DNA of 64,000 nt from a virus. Position numbers and translations under genes: made by a program. The notes beneath the pieces were generated by a model. That model saw only the letters and a list, made by a program, of their open reading frames with translations. It was not told the DNA's origin and did not search any database. Below are positions 12,582 through 55,096 of the stretch, piece after piece; the stretch's first letter is position 1, and each line of letters starts with the position of its first letter. The DNA lies in the IMG/VR virus record IMGVR_UViG_3300020186_000001, positions 44,330-108,329 of that record; one strand, written 5' to 3'.

Positions 12582-12625
12582 TAATACATCGTACTTTTTC
12601 GTATTAAACTTTAATAAATCTTGAT
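12582..12625 (-). promoter_or_regulatory. Conserved leftward promoter block, copy 1
   Basis: Read leftward, TAAAGTTT, then ATACGAAAAA, then GTACGATGTAT followed by an AT-rich -10-like TTAGTAT. The same block occurs at 16134, 17315, 18095, 20242 and 20806 (leftward) and 27753 (rightward), each 35-95 bases before a gene. It precedes the 12532-12162 microprotein unit. Confidence 0.7.
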
Positions 12626-12670
12626 ACATCAATCACATCATAAGGTTACGGTCTGTTGAAATCGTAAAAA

Positions 12671-13194: not shown

Positions 13195-15018
13195 TCATCC
13201 CCCTACAATTTTGGCCAGCTTTCGCATAGCATCTTTTGGCAAATCCTTTACGTTTTTAAGAACTATGTAATCAGAATAGAAGTGCTTAACTGAGTCAGTT
13301 TCGATACCTATTCCGATACATTCAATGCCTGACTTTTCAATAAGCTTAACCTTGTTCTTAAGATCGGAGCATAAGATGCCGCGATTGCCGTCACCTGTTG
13401 ACGGTTCACCGTCACTTAGGACTAGGAGTATTTTACGCTTCTCTTTGCGATTGCCAACCCGCTTCGCTGCCCAAGACACACACTCGCCATCAGGGTTCTG
13501 GACTCCAACGAAGAGGCTTTCAATGCCGCTTAAGGATTGAGTATCAAATGACTTGAAGACGTGAAGCTCAAGCCGCTCTCTGGTGCGGTTGAATCGACTT
13601 ATATCGGCCTTGCGAGCCATGTTTATAACATTGCGGTCATCTTCCGAGTAGAACCCTGTCACTTCAAAGGGTATCTGAAGGTCTTTCAAAGCCTCTGCCA
13701 TCGCGACGCAGGCCATCTTGGCAGTTCTCATTCTGCCAACCATTGAGCCAGACATATCGACTAGAATCTCAACTGCAACATTGTTGGTCTCAGTCTTAGT
13801 GAACGATTTAAAGACTCTTCTGTTGTTAGGATTGACAAGCATTTTGTTGAGACTACGTGCGTCAATCCTGCCTCGCTCTTTGTCCGAGGTCCACTTTGCA
13901 TCTTCTTTGACTTTTAGAACACGCTCAAGTTGGGACTTGATCGGTGCAACAAGTGAAGCGACATCCTGCTTTAATCTTGCGTAGGCTTTTGCATCACCCT
14001 TGCCGCTATGATCTGTAACCTTGTCAAATCTAGTAGTGAGAGGGATGGATCGTGAGCCTTCAAATATCGGACTCATCACACCGCGAGCAGTTTCTTTGAC
14101 TTCTTGCTTAATTGCATCTTTGATCTCTTTATTGATGAGACTGTGAATGTCATGGACGTGCTCATCAAACTTAGAATCTTTTGCATCAGGCTTCTCATCA
14201 AGCATCCTTCTTATTGCGGAAGGGCGACCACTACTGTCAGATAGCTTCTTCCCTTTCTTTGGACTACTTTCGCCTTCACTGGGAGTCTCACTTGAGCCTT
14301 CTCCTTCTCCTTCTCCTTCTCCTTCTCCTTCTGGACTTTCACTTTCAGGATCACCTCCGGTAGAGTCACCTTTTTCGCCTTTTCCTGAATCCTCTGGTTT
14401 CGACTCTCCATCTTTGGAGCTTTCACTACTTTTTTCTTCACGTTCTTTTTCCTCTTCTTTCCCAATCAATCGAACAATTTCTTCAGTAGCAACTCGAAGC
14501 TCAACAGTTGAATTGCAAGCTCCAAGGACGCTGGCCTTCTCACGCACAGCTTCTATATACCTTTTAGTATCCTTGTCAATACGAGGTTCTAAGCCTTCCA
14601 TCATATCTGAGACGGCAAGTATGATCCTCACCAGCGGAGCGATCTCACTCCACTCATCGCTAATTCTTTTGCGAAGCTTCACATTGAGAGGATTTATATT
14701 GAAGGCAGTGCCAGGAAACTCATTAATAATCGCCTTCTCAATACGATTGTCTTCAGCCGCATTCAGCATGATCTTATGAAAGTTTGAAATCACATATTTA
14801 ATTTCATCCATTTTAGTGAACTTGCAATGAGCGACCTCGTGATCAAGATAGCCGTTCAGGTCTGCCCTTAGTTCTGGAGTGATATTAGTGAAGCTTGGGA
14901 GCACAATCTTTTTGCCGTCAGTGTAAGCCCCACTGCCTTCAAAGATCACATCAATATGGTATTGGCGAGCAATGATACGAGCAATTTTCTCAAGAGAGGA
15001 TTCAAATAAGTGACTCAT
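13195..15018 (-). CDS. CobT-like VWA-domain protein with HExxH motif, 607 aa
   Basis: ATG 15018 has GGGAGG upstream; two earlier in-frame starts lack it. The N-terminal domain holds HEVAH at 60-64, a zincin-like motif. A highly acidic, serine/glutamate-rich linker follows, then a C-terminal von Willebrand A domain with MIDAS residues DMSGS at 421-425 and a late SDGEPSTGD. The layout matches CobT of cobaltochelatase and its phage relatives. The partner CobS-like ATPase is directly upstream and the two probably form a ring AAA-VWA machine. No CobN or other cobalamin gene is present, so a protein-remodelling, metal-insertion or proteolytic role is as likely as chelation. Confidence 0.8.
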   Translation of the reverse strand: MSHLFESSLEKIARIIARQYHIDVIFEGSGAYTDGKKIVLPSFTNITPELRADLNGYLDHEVAHCKFTKMDEIKYVISNFHKIMLNAAEDNRIEKAIINEFPGTAFNINPLNVKLRKRISDEWSEIAPLVRIILAVSDMMEGLEPRIDKDTKRYIEAVREKASVLGACNSTVELRVATEEIVRLIGKEEEKEREEKSSESSKDGESKPEDSGKGEKGDSTGGDPESESPEGEGEGEGEGEGSSETPSEGESSPKKGKKLSDSSGRPSAIRRMLDEKPDAKDSKFDEHVHDIHSLINKEIKDAIKQEVKETARGVMSPIFEGSRSIPLTTRFDKVTDHSGKGDAKAYARLKQDVASLVAPIKSQLERVLKVKEDAKWTSDKERGRIDARSLNKMLVNPNNRRVFKSFTKTETNNVAVEILVDMSGSMVGRMRTAKMACVAMAEALKDLQIPFEVTGFYSEDDRNVINMARKADISRFNRTRERLELHVFKSFDTQSLSGIESLFVGVQNPDGECVSWAAKRVGNRKEKRKILLVLSDGEPSTGDGNRGILCSDLKNKVKLIEKSGIECIGIGIETDSVKHFYSDYIVLKNVKDLPKDAMRKLAKIVGG

Positions 15019-15019
15019 G

Positions 15020-16090
15020 TTATTTGCCTCCCGCATTGCCAATCATGACACGTTGAATAATACCTTTGATCACTTCCGCATCCTCTGGACTAATCTTATT
15101 CAAAATTGAGGTTTGGGCTGCTTTCATAGGATCACGGTATCGCACCATGAGCTTTGCCCAATCAAGCATCCTGCGAAGTGAGAACGTGCATTGTATCTCT
15201 TCTTTGTTGAAAGACTCTCGAATCATGCCAGCGACTTTGACAATCACTGTTGCGATCTTGACAGTCAACTTTGGGACAGAAGCAACAAGGACTTTGGCCT
15301 CTTCATCGGCTGGCAGATAATTGACGTGATAGACGCTCCAACGATCAAGGAAAGCTTCATTCATTAGATTAGTGCCTTGATACAAAGACCTGAATTGAGA
15401 CATACACCCAACCGTATTGGCTGTTGCAAAAACTCTAAACTCAGGATGAGCGTGAACAACTTCGTGATCTCTTTCTTTTAACATCAAGGCACCGCTTGGC
15501 TCTAAGACGCTATTAAGAACTGAGAGGATCTCTTGCCCTGCAAAGTCAATCTCATCGAGAATCATCCAATAACCCTCACGCATGGCTTTCGGCAGCACCC
15601 CGTCAACCCATACCATCTCGCCACCACGAACGCTCCACATGCCTACGAAATCAGAGATTGTCATTTGACCGTTTAAATTGACTCGAATAAGATTGTTCTT
15701 AGTGCGAGCTGCGATCTGCTGAATGATGGAAGTTTTGCCACAGCCAGTGTGACCTGTTAGCATGATTCTTCTGTTCTCCAAGATGTCAGTGCAAATATCA
15801 CTGGCAAAATCAGAGAAGAAGAAAGCCTCATTTATGGCTGGGACAAAAACGCTGCCATTCGCAAGCGGCATCTCAACATCACCAATCTTAATTGAGTCTT
15901 CTGACACGGCATCACTCCCACTCCAAACAACCTGGGTTTCATCGACATCGAACTTAAGCATATACCATGCAAGGATTCCATCTGCGAACTTGGAACCCTC
16001 TGGATGGCCAGCGTGCTTCTTCTCGATGTGATCAACTAGATCATCCGATTTGAAATCACAAATTTTACAACTCAAATGCTTCTTACTCAT
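15020..16090 (-). CDS. MoxR/CobS-like AAA+ ATPase with N-terminal zinc finger, 356 aa
   Basis: ATG 16090 has GGGGAG upstream. Residues 8-26 form a C2H2-like finger (C8, C11, H21, H26). The AAA+ module has Walker A GHTGCGKT at 113-120, Walker B MILDEID at 176-182 and a FATANT sensor-1 segment. The C-terminal lid is about 100 residues long. This is the MoxR/CobS branch, which works with VWA proteins; the adjacent CobT-like gene is the expected partner. The zinc finger is an addition compared with bare chelatase subunits. Promoter copy 2 lies 44 bases upstream. Confidence 0.85.
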   Translation of the reverse strand: MSKKHLSCKICDFKSDDLVDHIEKKHAGHPEGSKFADGILAWYMLKFDVDETQVVWSGSDAVSEDSIKIGDVEMPLANGSVFVPAINEAFFFSDFASDICTDILENRRIMLTGHTGCGKTSIIQQIAARTKNNLIRVNLNGQMTISDFVGMWSVRGGEMVWVDGVLPKAMREGYWMILDEIDFAGQEILSVLNSVLEPSGALMLKERDHEVVHAHPEFRVFATANTVGCMSQFRSLYQGTNLMNEAFLDRWSVYHVNYLPADEEAKVLVASVPKLTVKIATVIVKVAGMIRESFNKEEIQCTFSLRRMLDWAKLMVRYRDPMKAAQTSILNKISPEDAEVIKGIIQRVMIGNAGGK

Positions 16091-16133
16091 ACAATGTTCT
16101 CCCCGTTTAGCCTTGGTTTTAGAACTTACATTG

Positions 16134-16173
16134 TAATACATCGTCATATTTTGTATGAAACTTTAGGGAATCT
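16134..16173 (-). promoter_or_regulatory. Conserved leftward promoter block, copy 2
   Basis: Read leftward it gives TAAAGTTTCATACAAAA, then TGACGATGTATTAC and a -10-like ACAATG. It sits between the 16175 stop and the AAA ATPase start, so the AAA/VWA pair has its own promoter. Confidence 0.7.
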
Positions 16174-16174
16174 G

Positions 16175-16429
16175 TCAACTAGCTTTACTGACTAGCTTAT
16201 TTTGCTTAACAAATTCATCCATTCCGAACGCTAGTAGGATTAGGACTGCCTCGGTTTTACTGACTTTCCGCGATCCTGGACCTCTTTGAGCCTCCAAGAC
16301 CTTGATCGCTTGATCAATAAAGTGCTCTTGCTTCTCATTCAAACGAATGGTCAGCATTCTGATTTTCAATTCATCGTGCTCAATCACATTCTTGGCTTTC
16401 ATACTCTTGCTCCTCTTTACATATTTCAT
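16175..16429 (-). CDS. Ribbon-helix-helix-like small protein, 84 aa
   Basis: AGGGAG precedes the ATG. A basic N-terminus is followed by MLTIRLNEKQEHFIDQAIKV and a second helical stretch starting RKVSKTEAVL, the strand-helix-helix pattern of ribbon-helix-helix DNA-binding proteins. It lies just behind the HDAC-like gene in the same unit. An autoregulator of the leftward operons is a reasonable guess. Confidence 0.5.
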   Translation of the reverse strand: MKYVKRSKSMKAKNVIEHDELKIRMLTIRLNEKQEHFIDQAIKVLEAQRGPGSRKVSKTEAVLILLAFGMDEFVKQNKLVSKAS

Positions 16430-16443
16430 GAAACACTCCCTGT

Positions 16444-17289
16444 TTATATCAACCCTGATACGCTACACGCTTGCTGCATGGTGATATCGTGAAGATCCAA
16501 TATCTTCCTAATGTCTTCTTGATAACCACCTGCCAGTGCAAACGCACAACCCTTTTTATGTTTTTTGCAATACTCAAAAACAATGCGATCTCTTCTGCGA
16601 ATTTGGTCAACCGTGAAAACACCTCCTAATGGATCATTGATAAAACTATCCATACCTGCGTTGTATATGATGAGACTGCAACCCTTAAATTGCCTCTTAA
16701 GGAACTTCGGTAGTGCTTTAAGCCAAGCCTCAGCGTCATCTGAGCGAACATCTGAATAGCCAAGGCTCCAATGAGAGATATTCAAATCAAGTTTTTCTAT
16801 GATGTCTTTTGTCCCATTCCCTGCGTGAGCATCAACATCAAAAATGCCAACCTTGCGAGCTAACCCTTTTTCTAGGACTTCAACTGCTCCAAGGACCAGG
16901 CTTCCGAAAGTGCAAAAGCCTCCGCCATGGCTATATGTGGCGTGATGGCTGCCACTGGTAGGAGACGCACAGATTTCCTTAGTTTCAGCGGCATGAACGG
17001 CTGCTGCCACCATGGAGCCACAAACCCAAGGGAGAGCGTCAGCGACACTCTTGAGCCTATTGTGGAACCCATTATCTTGAGTACAGCTTAAAACGCCTTT
17101 AACGTAGCTGGGATCGTGTATCTTGCTTATCTGCTTGATAGAGGATGGTCTGAATGACCTGACCGCTACGGGCAGTCCTAGTGCCTTCCAGGACGCGACA
17201 ACCTTTGCAGGCTTACCTGCCGATGGGCTAAAGCTATCGTTGTCTAAAACTGTTTGTTTTTCGTTGTAAAACACCATAACCCTACTCAT
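16444..17289 (-). CDS. Histone deacetylase/acetylpolyamine amidohydrolase-fold enzyme, 281 aa
   Basis: All catalytic elements of the zinc-dependent deacetylase superfamily are visible: tandem histidines (H115-H116 in GSHHATYSHGGGFC), zinc ligands D153 and H155 in FDVDAHAGNGT, D214 in NAGMDS with DPLGG following, and catalytic Y256 in LAGGY. The usual second histidine of DVHHG is alanine here. At 281 residues it is shorter than AcuC-type enzymes (about 375). Substrates could be acetyl-lysine on host proteins, acetylated polyamines, or another N-acyl group; the sequence does not decide. It follows promoter copy 3 and precedes a small RHH-like gene. Confidence 0.85.
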   Translation of the reverse strand: MSRVMVFYNEKQTVLDNDSFSPSAGKPAKVVASWKALGLPVAVRSFRPSSIKQISKIHDPSYVKGVLSCTQDNGFHNRLKSVADALPWVCGSMVAAAVHAAETKEICASPTSGSHHATYSHGGGFCTFGSLVLGAVEVLEKGLARKVGIFDVDAHAGNGTKDIIEKLDLNISHWSLGYSDVRSDDAEAWLKALPKFLKRQFKGCSLIIYNAGMDSFINDPLGGVFTVDQIRRRDRIVFEYCKKHKKGCAFALAGGYQEDIRKILDLHDITMQQACSVSGLI

Positions 17290-17314: not shown

Positions 17315-17357
17315 ATCATACATCGTCATTTTCCGTCTTAAACTTGAGTAAAACTCA
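17315..17357 (-). promoter_or_regulatory. Conserved leftward promoter block, copy 3
   Basis: Read leftward it contains CAAGTTTAAGACGGAAAA, TGACGATGTATGAT and a -10-like GATATT, 26 bases before the HDAC-like gene. A perfect TTGAGT-TTT-ACTCAA hairpin lies at its upstream edge. Confidence 0.65.
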
Positions 17358-17379
17358 ATACACTAGTAATATCATCGCT

Positions 17380-20241: not shown

Positions 20242-20286
20242 TTAATACATCGTACTTTTTCGTATGAAACTTTAATAAATCTTAAT
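20242..20286 (-). promoter_or_regulatory. Conserved leftward promoter block, copy 5
   Basis: Read leftward: GGGTATTAAGATTTATTAAAG, TTTCATACGAAAAA and GTACGATGTATTAAAT, 26 bases before the 20216 gene. It shares a longer upstream arm (TTGGGGTATTAAGATT) with copy 6. Confidence 0.75.
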
Positions 20287-20298
20287 ACCCCAATCAAA

Positions 20299-20556
20299 TC
20301 AGGTCACTTTGTTGTTCTTAATAATTTCAGTGAGGCGGTGTATCTCGATCTTAATAGCCGAGAAATATTCGTTTCTTGCTTCTTTGAGTGATCTGAAGCC
20401 GTAAAAGTCGAAATTGTCCTTGCGAACTCGATACAGGGTTTGACAGTCGCGTTCTAGCTTGGTGAAGGTGTCGCCAGTTTGAACCTTGTATTTTTCGATT
20501 TCACCGTCAGTTAGGCGATTTAGGTTATAACGATAAAGTGTTGTTGGGGATTTCAT
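20299..20556 (-). CDS. Hypothetical small protein, 85 aa
   Basis: AAGGAGG precedes the ATG. A beta-rich N-terminus (KYKVQTGDTFTKLERD) and a helical C-terminus (RNEYFSAIKIEIHRLTEII) are visible, with no recognised family. It forms a two-gene unit with the 59-residue gene upstream under promoter copy 6. Confidence 0.6.
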   Translation of the reverse strand: MKSPTTLYRYNLNRLTDGEIEKYKVQTGDTFTKLERDCQTLYRVRKDNFDFYGFRSLKEARNEYFSAIKIEIHRLTEIIKNNKVT

Positions 20557-20805: not shown

Positions 20806-20854
20806 ATAATGCATACATCGTACTTTTGTGTATGAAACTTTAGAGAATCTTAAT
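20806..20854 (-). promoter_or_regulatory. Conserved leftward promoter block, copy 6
   Basis: Read leftward: CTAAAGTTTCATACACAAAA, GTACGATGTATGC and ATTATAAGG as -10. It is the divergent partner of the rightward tRNA promoter about 70 bases away. Confidence 0.75.
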
Positions 20855-20877
20855 ACCCCAATAACACCAGGGCTTTA

Positions 20878-20899
20878 AAAGTTTCTACGTAGAAACTTT
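20878..20899. repeat. 22-bp perfect palindrome, copy 1 of 4
   Basis: The core GTTTCTACGTAGAAAC extends to a 22-bp perfect palindrome. Its right end overlaps the -35 region of the tRNA promoter, the position of a repressor operator. The TTTCTACGTAGAAA core recurs at 29821, 49198 and 55039. Confidence 0.8.
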
Positions 20900-20925
20900 G
20901 CCGTAGATGCCGATGCCCTTATAAT
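20898..20925 (+). promoter_or_regulatory. Promoter of the tRNA gene
   Basis: TTGCCG (20898-20903) is separated by 16 bases from TATAAT (20920-20925). The tRNA begins 5 bases later, so transcription would start at or just before its first base. The palindrome overlaps the -35 element. Confidence 0.65.
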
Positions 20926-20930
20926 GGAAA

Positions 20931-21001
20931 GGCAGGGTGGAGAAGTGGTATCTTGCTAGGCTCATAATCTAGAGACGAGGGTTCAATTCCCTCCTCTGCA
21001 A
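20931..21001 (+). tRNA. Initiator-type tRNA-Met (anticodon CAU), CCA not encoded
   Basis: A complete cloverleaf can be folded: a 7-nt acceptor arm, D arm GAGA/UCUU, anticodon arm CUAGG-CUCAUAA-UCUAG with CAU at 20963-20965, a 4-nt variable loop and T arm GAGGG-UUCAAUU-CCCUC. Position 1 (G) cannot pair with A72, and pair 11-24 is A-U; both are hallmarks of bacterial initiator tRNAs. The three anticodon-stem pairs that are normally all GC (29-41, 30-40, 31-39) read A-U, G-C and G-U. The discriminator is A73 and CT follows instead of CCA, so the end must be added by CCA transferase. A tRNA-Ile2 reading is less likely because of the 1-72 mismatch. Confidence 0.85.
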
Positions 21002-21058: not shown

Positions 21059-21316
21059 ATGCAACTGTCAAACGGCAAAGAAAAACGTGGATACGCCATT
21101 GTGCGGGACTTAGACGAATTAAGGCGTGAGGTAGAAGACGCACGCAGAGCCATCAGAAGCTCTCGCGAATTTGTACTAAAACCGTATCTAAATGACTCCA
21201 CTGGTCAAATAGACTTGACCAGGCGTGTCGCAGCAATCAAAGCAATTAGTCATTATGATAGGTTGATGCGGTCATATGAGTCTGATTGGGATGAAAAGCC
21301 TGCATACCTGGAATAG
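21059..21316 (+). CDS. Hypothetical small protein behind the tRNA, 85 aa
   Basis: AGAGGG precedes the ATG. The protein is helical and arginine/glutamate-rich (LDELRREVEDARRAIRSSRE), with no recognised domain. It is the only rightward gene between two leftward blocks and is probably co-transcribed with the tRNA from the palindrome-controlled promoter. It abuts the primase stop. Confidence 0.6.
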   Translation: MQLSNGKEKRGYAIVRDLDELRREVEDARRAIRSSREFVLKPYLNDSTGQIDLTRRVAAIKAISHYDRLMRSYESDWDEKPAYLE

Positions 21317-29723: not shown

Positions 29724-29820
29724 TGGGATCAGGTGGACCTACTGTCATGATCTCGGCCCACCCTAGCTGATCAGCACTAATCTGATCGGCCAAACAGCCA
29801 AAAGCTTTAGTGCGTAGAAG

Positions 29821-29834
29821 TTTCTACGTAGAAA
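29821..29834. repeat. Palindrome TTTCTACGTAGAAA, copy 2 of 4
   Basis: A 14-bp perfect core lies in the 159-base gap upstream of the 29883 gene, with a TTTAAA 18 bases downstream as a possible -10. Same core as at 20881. Confidence 0.75.
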
Positions 29835-29882
29835 TTCTGTCTTGATATGCCTTTTAAAACAGTGCTTTGCGAAGGAGGATGA

Positions 29883-49177: not shown

Positions 49178-49194
49178 TTATAACAGCAATTTAC

Positions 49195-49214
49195 AAGTTT
49201 CTACGTAGAAACTT
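49195..49214. repeat. 20-bp perfect palindrome, copy 3 of 4
   Basis: AAGTTTCTACGTAGAAACTT is a perfect palindrome sharing its full core with copy 1. It lies 50 bases before the 49265 gene, in the 87-base gap between two genes. Confidence 0.8.
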
Positions 49215-49264
49215 TGGGAGTTCCAGTGTGGGATGCAAACGGCTCTCCGGTAGAAGAGGTGGTA

Positions 49265-55031: not shown

Positions 55032-55038
55032 AACAGAG

Positions 55039-55052
55039 TTTCTACGTAGAAA
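55039..55052. repeat. Palindrome TTTCTACGTAGAAA, copy 4 of 4
   Basis: The 14-bp core lies in the 65-base gap before the 55097 gene. A TAAAAT at 55072-55077 could be the matching -10, placing the palindrome at the -35, as in copy 1. Confidence 0.75.
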
Positions 55053-55096
55053 TTATGAGCGAATACGAGAGTAAAATTGAATAGTTAGGAGTGTGT

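Follow-up and report, generated by a model that had tools for sequence, protein, structure and literature searches.

The window analysed here is a stretch of 64,000 bases, corresponding to bases 44330-108329 of a linear viral contig of 108,329 bases. ARAGORN called a tRNA-Met(cat) gene at 20931-21001 on the plus strand, and the same segment gave the sole Rfam match in the window (RF00005, 55.5 bits, E 3e-9) and is the only tRNA gene of the entire contig. It lies in a gap between minus-strand genes, and the next gene on the plus strand is an ORF of 85 aa. The features of the locus, in window coordinates, are as follows.

20811..20869, minus strand: copy of a 59-nt repeat family, upstream of minus-strand genes (five copies, 63-92% identical to the one taken as reference)
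20878..20899, no strand: 22-bp perfect palindrome AAAGTTTCTACGTAGAAACTTT, sharing two bases with the -35; further copies of its core occur in the contig
20898..20925, plus strand: sigma-70-like promoter TTGCCG-16-TATAAT with 10 of 12 consensus matches, the -10 ending 5 nt before nucleotide 1 of the tRNA
20931..21001, plus strand: initiator-type tRNA(CAU), nucleotides 1-73, without encoded CCA (ARAGORN, Rfam RF00005 and class covariance models)
20956..20972, plus strand: anticodon arm CTAGG-CTCATAA-TCTAG, read from the sequence, with 29-41 A-U, 30-40 G-C and 31-39 G-U replacing three G-C pairs
21059..21316, plus strand: 85-aa ORF directly 3' of the tRNA, with a GAGG Shine-Dalgarno-like site

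Read from the sequence, the tRNA is laid out as GGCAGGG TG GAGA AGTGGTA TCTT G CTAGG CTCATAA TCTAG AGAC GAGGG TTCAATT CCCTC CTCTGCA A, and the bases 3' of nucleotide 73 are CTG, CCA not being encoded. Its minimum free energy was unremarkable (z = -0.5), which is usual for tRNAs; the case for a tRNA gene is made by covariance and by the class scores.

To assign the class, 116 distinct CAU tRNAs from bacterial genomes were sorted into initiators, elongator Met and Ile2, and 16 sequences of each were used to build three class covariance models. The first-pass annotation had proposed an initiator and had named a covariance model scoring higher for Ile2 or elongator Met as the finding that would speak against it; when the models were run, the window tRNA scored 67.2 bits as an initiator, 42.6 as elongator Met and 39.9 as Ile2, the initiator being ahead by about 25 bits. 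A TFAM-like position profile agreed (46.1, 22.8 and -10.0, respectively), also with positions 1, 72, 11 and 24 masked (45.2, 30.4 and -0.3). In a leave-one-out control, this profile placed 59/59 initiators and 16/16 Met tRNAs correctly and misplaced 2/41 Ile2 tRNAs as Met, the Met and Ile2 labels having been assigned from the sequence of the acceptor and from resemblance to well-known genes. Position 11-24 split the 116 bacterial CAU tRNAs cleanly, with A-U confined to initiators, a group that was itself defined by A11-U24.

The individual features, as that annotation had described them, could be read in the sequence: a non-pairing G1xA72, a purine 11-pyrimidine 24 pair in the form of A11-U24, and the CAU anticodon. 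G2-C71, C3-G70, A73 and the CTCATAA anticodon loop are also present, so that the gene carries all the formylation determinants listed for initiators, namely the 1x72 mismatch, G2-C71, C3-G70 and A11-U24 (PMC7949028). The base at position 1 is atypical, since the sampled bacterial initiators start with C1 or U1, rarely A1, and in none of them with G1. The three consecutive G-C pairs at 29-41, 30-40 and 31-39 are absent; this is compatible with membership, because many of the initiators sampled from Pseudomonadota, Patescibacteria and mycoplasmas lack them too.

That an elongator Met or Ile2 tRNA had been mistaken for an initiator is extremely improbable. The acceptor GGCAGGG resembles that of some elongator Met tRNAs, and taken by itself the acceptor arm leans to Met in the position profile (13.0 vs 4.8 for the initiator), but the D arm alone is decisive the other way (initiator 13.9 vs -17.5 and -11.9). 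Apart from that acceptor arm, none of the elongator features (C11-G24 D arm, paired 1-72, top Met score) was found in the window tRNA, and neither was any Ile2 feature (C11-G24 or U11-A24, paired 1-72, top Ile2 score). The profile margin was below that of every bacterial initiator sampled, which, together with the Met-like acceptor arm, shows that the gene has diverged; its D arm is still unambiguous. Judged by its sequence, the gene at 20931-21001 (+) is a real tRNA gene of the initiator type.

The cloverleaf was compared pair by pair with six reference initiators, five bacterial and one from a huge phage. Pairing was found at 20 of the 21 helical positions, 1x72 being the sole exception. Depending on the reference, 3-7 changes were compensated on both sides (4-7 against the bacterial references), the few one-sided changes each left a standard pair, and no pair was broken. 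With the same number of changes placed randomly, the probability that so many pairs survive is at most 2e-4. Compensated changes and intact pairs together show that the cloverleaf has been under selection. The same phage was seen only as two near-identical contigs (99.8%).

Three G-C pairs in the anticodon stem are described as nearly universal among initiator tRNAs. The first-pass annotation had noted their replacement by A-U, G-C and G-U, which the sequence confirmed, and had described the combination for some mycoplasma initiators. The latter holds, but is too narrow: a search of 84,980 species of bacteria and archaea found the exact pattern (initiator D arm plus A-U/G-C/G-U stem) at 24 loci, a lower bound. 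Of these loci, 14 are in the mycoplasma group, but the stem is not confined there, as the others belong to Rickettsiales (5), WWE3 (2), one Bacillota MAG (2) and Halanaerobium (1), and further cases occur in phages. In bacteria, this stem is rare. It was also noticed that Halanaerobium polyolivorans (G001; L327 and L328) has two initiator genes in one genome, one with an A-U/G-C/G-C and one with an A-U/G-C/G-U stem.

Among viruses, the generic initiator pattern was matched in at least 120 viral stretches of IMG/VR, and the A-U/G-C/G-U stem in two other groups of phage contigs (L003/L007/L008 and L005/L006) as well as in the public 735-kb huge phage LR756501. Among the matches listed, 83 distinct well-formed phage initiators, unselected for stem, were tallied; all three G-C pairs were kept in 25 of these (~30%), and the middle pair 30-40 was G-C in 81. 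In the bacterial samples, the three pairs were kept in 19/19 Bacillota, in 20/28 of the Pseudomonadota pooled with some hand-picked members of both phyla (the Rickettsiales anchor genome accounts for one of the eight that lack them), and in 6/16 Patescibacteria; Bacillota and Pseudomonadota samples together gave 39/47. The contrast between phages and bacteria is a lead only, because the phage hosts are mostly not identified, the bacterial samples are small, and some of the viral-contig initiator genes may be host flank, 17/85 being no more than 200 bases away from an end of the available sequence. A further CAU tRNA-like sequence with the A-U/G-C/G-U stem, unannotated and missed by ARAGORN, was seen in Rhodococcus phage NiceHouse (L384, MT521992.1, ~91379-91436).

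One reason for such a stem could be evasion of defence, the altered pairs resisting VapC-type host nucleases and the phage initiator replacing a cut host initiator. In tRNAfMet, VapC toxins cleave at the junction of the anticodon stem with the loop (PMC8522696), and the window tRNA has U in place of C at position 39 and an A-U pair at 29-41. It has been proposed that phage tRNAs altered in the anticodon loop escape anticodon nucleases (PMC10264068), and the tallies above, within the matches listed, have stems varying more in phages than in Bacillota and Pseudomonadota. However, the CTCATAA loop of the window tRNA is canonical, without a change at the cut site, and only stem pairs differ; a published analysis found that, as a rule, phages do not carry a tRNA-fMet gene where this tRNA is a VapC target (PMC10264068); and the same stems are found in bacterial chromosomes. 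On balance, we regard this explanation as unlikely.

Alternatively, the host initiator may already have the A-U/G-C/G-U stem, with the phage copy just matching it and the stem having no phage-specific function. Bacteria with such a stem exist, as listed above, and their initiators in mycoplasmas, Rickettsiales and WWE3 are identical to the window tRNA at pairs 29-41, 30-40 and 31-39; those of WWE3 also share its short 7-nt D-loop and 4-nt variable loop. Yet these initiators are cellular, begin with C1 or U1 and encode CCA, and no sampled bacterial initiator was more than 80% identical to the window gene, the closest ones coming from different phyla. Furthermore, 7-nt D-loops occur elsewhere too, and the 62 ORFs sampled from the phage use the standard code with TGA as stop for 25 of them, so that a code-4 mollicute host is unlikely. 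A Patescibacteria host, prompted by the short loops of WWE3, was unsupported, as the pattern occurred in only 17/116 genomes and the stem of the window tRNA in one. A match to the host initiator is a possibility of some weight, if still an improbable one; it concerns only the reason for the unusual stem and is compatible with a role of the tRNA as a supplementary initiator.

Genes of a tailed phage are present on the contig, including those for a DnaE/PolC-type polymerase, a DnaB-like helicase, primase, ligase, a portal with an intein, a minor tail protein and a sigma-like protein. The portal protein (L253:5896-8994) is split by an intein that carries a LAGLIDADG domain. On the minus strand of the window, a phage protein with a histone-deacetylase-family domain (16444-17289; Pfam PF00850, E 6e-27) and a CobT-like VWA protein adjoining a CbbQ/CobS-like AAA ATPase (13195-16147), a pair of the MoxR/VWA type, were also identified. 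Searches for relatives gave the following: 1) no relative was found at the DNA level in the phage collection, and no match in the plasmid search, 2) the neighbouring primase and the 85-aa ORF had relatives in IMG/VR only on the near-identical contig L004, 3) the DNA polymerase matched 1,359 distant phage records with many hosts and was uninformative about the host, and 4) no match was found for a 575-aa protein of the contig that lacks annotation. Phages with known hosts that carry genes related to the tRNA gene are Caulobacter phages CcrColossus and CcrSC and Pseudomonas phage D3.

The claim that the gene has its own promoter, with a palindromic site on the -35, was borne out as far as such sites can be recognized: TTGCCG-16-TATAAT is present, and the 22-bp palindrome shares two bases with the -35. 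Chance alone often yields consensus matches (mean 1.6 per 800 bp of shuffled sequence), so that the promoter-like site is notable for its position, not for its score. With the -10 ending 5 nt from G1, transcription would be expected to start at G1 or no more than one or two bases from it, and the position of the site thus suggests a start at or beside nucleotide 1 of the tRNA. Of the 145 distinct phage initiators whose upstream sequence was long enough, six had a promoter-like site 4-6 nt upstream (shuffles: mean 0.9, maximum 4), and a second cluster lay at ~13 nt; the enrichment at 4-6 nt is suggestive only, as this distance was picked with the window already in view. CCA is encoded in about 75% of bacterial initiator genes, and encoding it has been proposed to offset inefficient processing of initiator precursors (PMC5143459). 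For a gene without encoded CCA, a start at nucleotide 1 would be advantageous.

The palindrome core GTTTCTACGTAGAAA occurs six times in the contig, with none expected from window shuffles, each time in an intergenic gap and frequently directly 3' of a stop codon. The sites are:

window 20878-20899 (at the tRNA)
window 29817-29838
window 49194-49215
window 55035-55056
L253, ~9236
L254, ~8903

Only the copy at the tRNA has a TATAAT neighbour. The palindrome is probably an operator or regulator site of the phage, or else an RNA hairpin, and it would put the tRNA in a phage-wide regulatory set. The 59-nt repeat shares AAAGTTT with the palindrome, and its copies are located upstream of minus-strand genes:

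window 12582-12640
window 16134-16192
window 17316-17374
window 20243-20301
window 20811-20869

These repeats are likely to be a family of phage early promoters, the copy at 20811-20869 probably acting as a divergent early promoter that points away from the tRNA. Downstream, no terminator-like site was found between the tRNA and the 85-aa ORF, which had no family match and is likely to be co-transcribed with the tRNA.

A non-translational reading is conceivable: the tRNA could be a decoy, with nucleases, MTF or IF2 as its targets, or the gene could be a remnant left when the phage integrated into a host tRNA gene. The tRNA gene stands alone, and no other translation gene was found among ~70 proteins checked. 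Against this speak the complete charging and formylation determinants, the compensated stems, the promoter-like site of the gene itself, its location away from the contig ends, and the lack of CCA and of host flank. We consider this reading very unlikely.

Initiator-type CAU tRNAs were also found in Caulobacter phages CcrSC and CcrColossus, Pseudomonas phage D3, the crAss-like phages cr60_1 and Bohxovirus, huge phages LR756501 and LR756511, and IMG/VR contigs. The D3 gene (L378, AF165214.2, 53398-53473) has the loop CCCATAA, in which the normally invariant U33 is changed to C. Like the window tRNA, the initiators of other phages are frequently without the three G-C pairs; these phages are unrelated to it, and many have large tRNA sets, whereas the initiator is the only tRNA of the window contig, as it was in 8/32 phage records checked. 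Phage initiators are already on record, the CcrSC gene being annotated as tRNA-fMet and formylmethionine tRNA genes having been published for wastewater huge phage 1-SewaA, where they belong to a set of 47 tRNAs, unlike the lone window tRNA (PMC10747093); they are abundant in IMG/VR. Uncommon in the window gene are the stem and the first base, and the promoter position is suggestive. Compared with bacterial initiator tRNAfMet, the window tRNA shares the class scores, A11-U24, the 1x72 mismatch, G2-C71, C3-G70, A73 and the CTCATAA loop, but it has A-U/G-C/G-U in place of the three G-C pairs, G1 in place of C1 or U1, no CCA and a 4-nt variable loop.

Established at the level of sequence are the class of the tRNA, an intact cloverleaf with compensated changes, the formylation determinants, A73 and a CAU anticodon of the kind read by MetRS. 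We think it probable that a tailed phage here carries a true initiator tRNA gene, and that the product of this gene serves as a supplementary initiator during infection. The phage would transcribe the tRNA from the promoter of the gene itself; as the transcript would probably begin at or beside G1, little or no RNase P trimming would be needed. Host enzymes would trim the 3' end, add CCA, charge the tRNA with Met and formylate it, and the product would enter the 30S P site, sustaining initiation when host initiator tRNA is scarce or under cleavage. Loss of the G-C pairs at 29-41 and 31-39 would be tolerated, the middle G30-C40 being retained as in most sampled phage initiators. In E. coli, the three G-C pairs are needed for the transit from the 30S to the 70S initiation complex (PMC7949028), so that the activity of the window tRNA would depend on the host. 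An earlier suggestion that such a tRNA biases initiation towards GTG/TTG or leaderless phage starts found no support, as the CTCATAA loop is the usual one, ATG opens 45/62 sampled ORFs, and a Shine-Dalgarno-like site lies near a possible start in 33/62.

A broader proposal is that phage initiators form a distinct set in which the three G-C pairs are relaxed to an essential G30-C40, and that some, including the window tRNA, are transcribed from nucleotide 1 without RNase P, giving early in infection an unprocessed or 5'-triphosphate initiator that is spared by initiator-cutting host nucleases; we judge this quite unlikely as a whole. Those of the consulted phage tRNA papers that mention initiators do so only in passing. 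Phages hold many natural initiators that break the rule of three G-C pairs in varied ways, and the window gene is a clear single-tRNA case. They would provide a ready set for testing which stem pairs the ribosome needs, and are also suited to asking whether phages supply initiators in order to outlast initiator-cutting defences.
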